Part shown: in pieces, positions 50,572 through 52,229 of the stretch
Layout: each line of letters opens with the position of its first letter
Numbering within the stretch: the first letter of the stretch is position 1
Source of the DNA: SAR86 cluster bacterium AG-422-O05
GTDB taxonomy: Bacteria; Pseudomonadota; Gammaproteobacteria; Magnimaribacterales; D2472
Reading direction: 5' to 3'
Assembly: GCA_003213495.1 (NCBI GenBank)
Contig: QCMW01000001.1
Span: 558,001-622,000, forward strand
Length of the DNA: 64,000 bases
Made by a program: the position numbers and the translations under genes
The notes under the pieces: model-generated
What the model saw: only the letters and a program-made list of their open reading frames with translations
Database searches by the model: none
Told to the model about the DNA's origin: nothing

Positions 50572-52229
50572 GAGATATATTTTATTATACTTTTACCCGC
50601 TTCTCGTCCCTCCCAGATTGCAGTAACAACTAAATCTGATCCTCGCACCATATCACCACCGGAGAATACTTTTTTATTTGTAGTTTGAAATTTGAATTCT
50701 TGATTTTCTTCTGCAATGACCAAGCCATCTTTTTTTATTTTGATATTGAAGTCATCGAACCATTCAGCTGGACTCGCTCTAAATCCAAATGCAACAATGA
50801 CAACATCTGCGTCATAAATTTTTTCTGAGTCAGGGATAGGTATAGGAATTCGTCTTCCATTATGATCTGGTTCACCTAGAATTGTTTGTACTGTTTTAAT
50901 CCCTTCAACTTTTTTATTGCCCAATATATCAATCGGCTGAATATTAAAATTAAAAATCACGCCTTCTTCTTTGGCATTTTTAACTTCTCTTCTTGAGCCA
51001 GGCATATTCTTTTCATCTCTTCTATATAGGCATGTAACTGATTTTGCTCCTTGTCTTATAGCAGTTCTGTTACAGTCCATGGCAGTATCTCCTCCACCTA
51101 AAACAACGACTTTTTTATCTTTAAAATCAATATGTTCGCTTTTACCTGTATCCATATTTAATAGTTTCTTAGTATTAGAAATGAGATAGTCTATTGCCTT
51201 ATAAACTCCGGGAAGTTTTTCTCCACTAAATCCACCTTCAAGAGAAGTGTAGGTACCCATAGCTAAAAAAACAGCATCATTAGCATCATATATTTCTTGG
51301 AATGGAATATCTTTTCCAATTTCTACTCCTAGATGAAAATCTATACCCATTTCTTCAAGCACTTTTCTTCTTCTTCTGACTACAGATTTTTCAAGTTTAA
51401 ATTCAGGGATCCCAAAAGTTAATAATCCACCTATTTCATCATTCTTATCATAAACATCACTTTTAATGCCAGATCTTGTCAAAATGTCTGCACAAGCAAT
51501 TCCTGCCGGACCTGAGCCCACAATTGCAACTTTTTTATTTTTCCATTTTCTATGTGATAAGTCTGGTTTCCAACCCATTTCAAATGCCTTTTCAGTAATA
51601 TATTTTTCAATAGAACCAATAGTTACTGCACCAAAACCATCATTTAATGTACACGCTCCCTCACATAGACGATCTTGTGGGCAGACACGCCCACAAACTT
51701 CAGGAAGACTATTAGTTGAATGACATAAATCAGCAGCTTCTAAAATATTTCCTTCATTTACTAGCTTCAACCAATCAGGAATGTAGTTATGAACTGGACA
51801 TTTCCACTCACAATATGGGTTACCACAATCTAAACATCTATGTGCCTGATTTGAAGCCTGTACTTGATTATATTCCCCATAAATTTCCACAAATTCTATT
51901 TTTCGTTCTTCAGGATCTTTTTTTGAGGGATCGTATCTACCCACATCGAGAAATTGAAAATTATTTTCAAGTTTCTCAAAAGAAGTATATTCGTTTCTGT
52001 CAGATGTAATAAAATTCTTAGCTGCAACTTGAAAATTCTTTTCCTGTTGAATTATTTCATCACGCCACTCATATAGTCTGATTTTTGCATCTTCTAGATT
52101 AGATATAGGAGCAAAAGATTGAGTTCTGTATTTCCCATTGATTCTCAATTTTCCATAAAAATAGGGTGATCGAGGCTGTGTAAACAGTAAAAGACCTTTC
52201 TCAATTCTATATTGCTTATTTTTATTCAT
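50568..52229 (-). CDS. gltD: Glutamate synthase small subunit with N-terminal integrase-arm-like extension
   Basis: 553 residues, about 80 longer than usual GltD. Normal GltD homology starts near residue 88 ([13 protein letters not shown]) and includes the [4Fe-4S] cysteines in [17 protein letters not shown] and [15 protein letters not shown], the FAD site [11 protein letters not shown] and the NADPH site [11 protein letters not shown]. Residues 1-86 contain [15 protein letters not shown] followed by [16 protein letters not shown], resembling the arm-type DNA-binding domain of tyrosine recombinases. No Met lies between the first and the core, so the extension is probably translated. GltD feeds electrons to GltB, encoded divergently at 52331. 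Confidence 0.93.

Follow-up and report, generated by a model that had tools for sequence, protein, structure and literature searches.

A putative self-regulating GltD in SAR86: an integrase-type arm domain on a glutamate synthase subunit and a conserved repeat at its own gene

The gltD gene of the SAR86 cluster bacterium AG-422-O05, whose genome comprises 1.28 Mb in two contigs, encodes a glutamate synthase subunit with an N-terminal extension, which raises the question of where this extension comes from and what it does on a metabolic enzyme. A previous sequence-only reading of the window, i.e. the whole 64,000-nt stretch of DNA that was analysed, had described a GltD of 553 residues with normal homology from about residue 88, and had proposed that the preceding segment was an arm-binding domain captured from an integrase. 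The boundary agrees with the match to TIGR01318 (gltD_gamma_fam), which covers residues 91-552 with 723.8 bits compared to a cut-off of 482.95 and places the protein in the gamma-type family. The tyrosine recombinase catalytic domain PF00589 is absent among the Pfam matches listed for the full GltD (25 of 26 families). The domain proper comprises approximately residues 4-58 (about 58 AA), followed by a variable linker (residues 59-90). The reported lack of an internal methionine in residues 1-86 applies to the protein of the window but not as a general trait, since a methionine precedes the core in 44 of 80 related loci (best 80 of 90), mostly within the domain. The features of the locus are given in Table 1. 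Elsewhere in the window, two adjacent ORFs on the minus strand (45038-46804 and 46813-47802) resemble, by their sequence, CobT-type VWA and CobS/MoxR-type AAA proteins and hence a cobaltochelatase-like pair.

Table 1. Features of the gltD-gltB locus in window coordinates.
Feature	Position	Strand	Basis or remark
gltD (domain, linker and core)	50568-52229	-	553-aa ORF
Arm-type DNA-binding-like domain, GltD residues 1-58	52056..52229	-	AlphaFold, VIA, hhalign, dN/dS
Variable linker, GltD residues 59-90	51960..52055	-	dN/dS 0.134 (59-88); varies among 80 loci (best 80 of 90)
Ordinary gamma-type GltD core, residues 91-553 and stop	50568..51959	-	TIGR01318; Fer4_20, Pyr_redox_2
Divergent gltD-gltB intergenic region, holding the putative operator	52230..52330	.	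101 bp between starts
Putative operator, tandem 10-bp direct repeat GTCATACTATGTCATAC	52246..52262	-	16 nt upstream of gltD ATG
gltB, large subunit, divergent	52331..56761	+	1476-aa ORF; identity from sequence and place

The domain was searched for first in 100 relatives and then in 203 genomes of the order. It is present in 94 of the 107 genomes of SAR86 family f1, covering ten genera (counted from match rows), which rules out an oddity of a single genome. The fusion was read in 42 f1 genomes and in 80 overlapping named loci, while the remainder was assigned from place and open-frame length. Twelve of the 13 f1 genomes without the domain have no GltD match at all (whole GltD, E<=1e-60) and in the remaining one a contig end truncates gltD; therefore, no domain-less f1 gltD was seen. 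By contrast, the GltDs of the sister family f4 begin directly at the core without an N-terminal domain (5/5 read). A mis-called gltD start is ruled out by the low dN/dS within the domain. The pooled values are 0.034 for domain residues 4-58, 0.134 for linker residues 59-88 and 0.039 for core residues 93-553, based on 49 close, mutually non-independent pairs (core pS 0.05-0.5) from 71 of 81 sequences, leaving out those that were truncated, contained N or had no start methionine. The domain is under selection no less strict than the enzyme core, and the extension is genuine coding sequence.

Compared to the f1 protein, the f2 and f3 genomes tested encode a distant GltD type with 37-41% identity (L175-L181 versus window 50568-52229). 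Since f1 and f4 share the gamma-type GltD, this suggests a replacement of GltD within the order. Judging by genus number and genome size, our guess is that f1 corresponds to the 'Suzuki' family of PMC11582366 and f4 to its CHAB-I-7. A weak domain match in G016 (E=0.04) lies in an ORF unlike the fusions. At another locus, L165 (G156:C1:56000-59800), gltB and gltD are split into several frames, probably by an assembly or sequencing error.

The sequence relationship to integrases is best seen with profile A1, which was built from 14 GltD and five Rieske N-termini and contains no integrases. It matches the N-terminus of L164, a 382-aa protein of SAR86 family f3, with E=4.6e-10. L164 contains integrase SAM-like domains (Pfam) and, by eye, a recombinase-typical C-terminus, and a tRNA-Phe gene (ARAGORN) is located just upstream. 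The comparison of the GltD-only alignment A4 with eleven integrase N-termini in hhalign, ten of which had been found by a profile containing one integrase row, gave a probability of 97.3 and E=1.9e-11. These two results rule out a chance resemblance to integrases. As profiles A3 and A6 each contain one integrase row, integrase matches with them are partly by construction. The gene encoding L164 (L164:918-2066, minus strand, SAR86 genome G067) appears to be an intact tyrosine integrase gene, and its product is possibly a still living relative of the donor.

Other searches with the domain were less productive. No Pfam arm family scored above its cut-off (best per member: DUF6538 at 0.0051, Arm-DNA-bind_3 at 0.12), which likewise applied to the nine integrases tested, and Pfam, PHROGs and NCBIfam returned no convincing family for the domain of the window. 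An NCBIfam match to TIGR04471 at 0.0043 was taken as chance. A PDB sequence search with the domain found no integrase, and viral contigs searched with A1 and A6 contained no relative. Among phage records, the GltD domain had no match, and the matches of the Rieske domain were limited to six integrase records from Mycobacterium phages at E=2. The class-level search (369 genomes, E<=1e-4) yielded eight matches beyond the window, namely one cytochrome b fusion and seven proteins that are integrase-like by reading, three of which were Pfam-scanned. Eight further matches beyond the window were found at the phylum level (398 genomes). Six of them carry a short recombinase motif and the remaining two, L202 (incomplete) and L203, have weak Pfam integrase matches only. 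Searching the class of G784 (78 genomes, E<=0.001) gave two matches, in G784 and G653.

The predicted structure points in the same direction with moderate strength. AlphaFold modelled the domain with a pLDDT of 90.4 as four strands (residues 6-10, 13-18, 21-30 and 33-38) and a helix (45-64), i.e. the beta-sheet and C-terminal helix of an arm-type fold. The structure-prediction alignments comprised 36 and 32 of 81 sequences, and the model of full-length GltD was poor (pLDDT 63.5). Integrase arm-type domains occupy VIA ranks 2, 3 and 5 (3rmp, 3jtz from HPI and 3ju0 from HAI7; Z 6.3, 6.1 and 5.3). These scores are modest and stand among unrelated rows, including an unrelated protein at rank 1 (Z 6.5), and Z values of 5-6 are also seen for unrelated folds. 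Foldseek against the PDB returned nothing at E<=0.001 (best E 0.18). Y25, K27 and R29 are invariant in the GltD domain. With side chains alternating along strand 21-30, they would point to the same side of the sheet, which we take to be the DNA-contacting side in arm domains. With the tyrosine-recombinase arm domains 3jtz, 3ju0 and 3rmp, the extension shares the N-terminal position, the length of about 60 AA and the arrangement of beta-sheet and helix, and with integrase arm domains a common S-x-x-(W/Y/F)...G...(K/R)-S...A pattern. Judged by sequence comparison, the GltD domain is homologous to the arm-type DNA-binding domain of tyrosine integrases, and the sequence-only reading was right on the domain and its likely source.

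The same domain is not restricted to GltD. In family f4 it heads the Rieske protein (TIGR01416), ahead of the Tat-type motif, in 14 of the 19 genomes examined, within the gene order rplM-rpsI-petA-petB (names by eye). The other five (G062, G068, G080, G092, G098) encode an ordinary, unfused Rieske protein (ORF of about 190-200 aa). Between the rpsI stop and the petA ATG lie 155-185 nt in fused compared to 7-14 nt in unfused genomes. Cytochrome b (petB) carries the domain in four genomes of about 0.7-1.1 Mb from another gammaproteobacterial family (G486, G573, G574, G575). Here, the petA stop and the conserved petB core are separated by 366-447 nt in fused loci versus 36-56 nt in six unfused ones. 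Two f1 genomes, G152 and G153, encode the domain a second time, besides the GltD copy, at the head of an indolepyruvate ferredoxin oxidoreductase (about 1240 aa). This gene was found in four of 29 genomes searched. The copy in G151 is cut and uninformative, and the unfused gene in G150 has a start that overlaps with the stop codon of the gene before it. The oxidoreductase case thus comprises two genomes and one readable unfused relative, compared to four fused genomes for petB. All unfused petA, petB and oxidoreductase genes that were read lack both the domain and an upstream insert, and these unfused relatives support the domain capture that had been proposed for GltD.

What these fusions may have gained is indicated by the DNA in front of them. 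In the 101 bp between gltD and gltB, the putative operator consists of two GTCATAC copies at exact 10-bp spacing. Its sequence GTCATACTATGTCATAC is the sole match in the 64-kb window even at two mismatches, with at least one such match in 14 of 100 shuffles. The form TGTCATACTnnGTCATAC, or a near-identical one, lies upstream of gltD in 80/80 loci (best 80 of 90 found, overlapping with the genomes of the repeat pattern search). No variation across the 80 loci (best 80 of 90) is seen at fourteen repeat positions, which are the pattern that anchored these loci, or at the flanking positions -1 and -3. Most other nearby columns vary, with the A/T-rich positions -4 to -6, -15, -19 and -21 being fairly conserved. 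In 77 loci, 4-35 nt separate the repeat from the gltD ATG, the other three having a GTG start (best 80 of 90), and its distance to the presumed ATG of gltB is 25-69 nt in 78/80 loci (best 80 of 90). The repeat occurs in all three frames and is therefore not coding. A search of 100 genomes found the exact repeat in 53 of 60 f1 genomes, as one copy per genome just upstream of the GltD domain, and in 0/40 f2-f4 genomes, and the reversed-pattern control gave no matches. Five of the seven f1 genomes without the exact repeat have no GltD match, and in the other two (g10) the domain has diverged most. G042, which belongs to this pair, has a one-base variant of the repeat 3 nt before the likely ATG, and the repeat itself contains a further in-frame ATG.

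Each of the other three fused genes also has repeats directly upstream, and the repeats differ between the fusions. At petA, an inverted repeat of the form TTGAACAC-n-TGTTCAA occurs in two copies in 14/14 fused genomes, with matches only at petA, and in 0/5 unfused f4 genomes; the reversed pattern had one match, in G077. The second copy runs into the start codon (TGTTCAAAATG). The centres of the repeat pairs lie 121 to 144.5 bp apart (L238-L248, L253, L256, L267) and flank a TATAAT-like stretch (by eye), a spacing that would fit DNA looping. All four fused petB loci have TTACACA-type direct repeats in two clusters within the 147-228 nt between the petA stop and the TTG start, and none were seen in six unfused relatives. 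At the two fused oxidoreductase loci, repeats of the TATACACAG type together with an inverted copy extend to just before the start. Between G152 and G153 the same base differs in both arms (TGCACA/TGTGCA versus TACACA/TGTGTA).

Similar repeats are found in front of some integrases. Upstream of the native SAR86 integrase L164, five copies of TAACACA fall within 160 nt of the start, a number reached in 0/1000 shuffles, and TTACACA repeats immediately precede the start of integrase L188 (65/1000 shuffles). For nine of 11 other integrases, ACAC/GTGT was not clearly in excess in the upstream DNA. Shuffle tests of single fused-gene regions were mixed as well. The ACAC test gave 0, 68, 8, 11, 186, 6 and 139 of 1000 for seven regions. 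The gltD window (380/1000), two of the four petB regions (L192 965/1000, L193 796/1000) and one of the two oxidoreductase regions (L268 707/1000) were not significant. Because of these partly non-significant shuffles and the nine integrases without an excess, the argument rests on the conservation of the repeats and on their presence with and absence without the domain.

One alternative is that the repeats are promoter elements or sites of a separate transcription factor, with which the domain has nothing to do. Sigma-70-like hexamers do overlap the gltD repeat, with four sites in the region, which is not significant compared to 1.8 +/- 1.4 in shuffles. However, a single exact copy per genome would be odd for a general promoter element or a regulon, and this explanation does not account for differing repeats at all four fusions and none where petA, petB and the oxidoreductase gene were read in unfused form. 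We consider it quite unlikely.

Another possibility is that only a promoter was captured along with a domain since repurposed as a non-DNA-binding module for folding, dimerisation or partner docking. Arm domains make protein contacts too. All four carriers are redox proteins and three belong to Fe-S protein families, presumably including the indolepyruvate ferredoxin oxidoreductase family as one that binds Fe-S clusters, while the fourth, cytochrome b, partners an Fe-S protein, so that a shared assembly partner is conceivable. Left unexplained are the 10-bp tandem repeat kept in 80/80 gltD loci (best 80 of 90) and the petA repeats occurring only where the domain is fused, which makes this alternative improbable.

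A third explanation would be that the domain tethers its protein to DNA, for nucleoid tethering or for the control of other genes, without acting on its own gene. With the assumed topology of PetA and PetB, the N-terminal domain of these membrane proteins would face the cytoplasm, as in the membrane-bound regulators ToxR and CadC. However, the exact gltD-type and petA-type sites were found only at the fused gene itself in the genomes searched, and this explanation is very unlikely. All three alternatives explain less than control of the gene by its own product.

We therefore favour, with a probability of roughly 0.75, the reading that SAR86 GltD is a self-regulating enzyme that acts through a captured integrase 5' end binding its own upstream repeat. 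The 5' end of an integrase gene, including arm-type sites and the N-terminal arm domain, would have been captured in frame ahead of gltD. The arm domain would then bind the tandem repeat TGTCATACTnnGTCATAC, which lies between gltB and gltD a few bases away from the start codon of the fusion itself. This binding, suggested by the repeats upstream of each fused gene, would keep gltD expression down, and probably that of the divergent gltB as well, similar to integrases repressing their own promoters. Both genes could be controlled, since the site lies between their divergent starts, and repression is the best guess for the effect because the sites are on or near start codons. As a speculation, the binding form may be the free, unassembled or cofactor-less (cluster-less) subunit. 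Separate captures of the same kind may have occurred on petA, petB and the indolepyruvate ferredoxin oxidoreductase gene, each with its own repeats, and the captured sites and domain would have been kept as a self-control unit.

Several known systems offer parallels. PutA is an autogenous regulator and trigger enzyme with a ribbon-helix-helix domain. Like PutA-like trigger enzymes, GltD combines a DNA-binding-type domain and an enzyme in one chain, with a putative operator at its own divergent promoter. As in an autogenously regulating enzyme, a DNA-binding-type domain is fused to the enzyme and a conserved site is present at its own gene. In contrast to PutA, the domain and sites are apparently integrase-derived and the same kind of fusion is found on four genes unrelated to one another. 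Short repeated sites adjoining the gene are also shared with integrase arm systems. In phage lambda, the arm sites P'1-P'3 are tandem 10-bp sites and the N-domain of Int is an arm-type domain. Unlike integrases, the fusions have no core-binding or catalytic domain, sit on metabolic or respiratory proteins and remain below all Pfam cut-offs. Compared to the gamma-type GltD of TIGR01318, the protein agrees in its core (residues 91-553) and differs by the N-terminal domain that is absent in five f4 GltDs. According to PMC2951348, many integrases are reported or predicted to repress themselves, with att sites overlapping the promoter. IntS of KplE1, as described there, is likewise an arm-domain protein made from a promoter overlapping its own sites (putative here), but its product is a recombinase instead of a housekeeping enzyme.

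In the literature searched, which covered subscription journals thinly, neither a GltD nor a Rieske fusion of this kind was described. Beyond the sequence-only reading, the recurrence on four genes and the linked upstream repeats are new. We lean towards a portable integrase 5' cassette that was joined on at least four occasions to mutually unrelated redox proteins in gammaproteobacteria with small genomes. It would have turned GltD, two subunits of a respiratory complex and an oxidoreductase into self-repressing DNA-binding proteins, possibly reporting their Fe-S or assembly state to their own promoters, even from the membrane. If this is right, the regulatory unit of a mobile element, a DNA-binding domain together with its operator, would have been domesticated on housekeeping genes without a separate transcription factor, and comparing the four captures with their different sites would reveal how arm domains read DNA.
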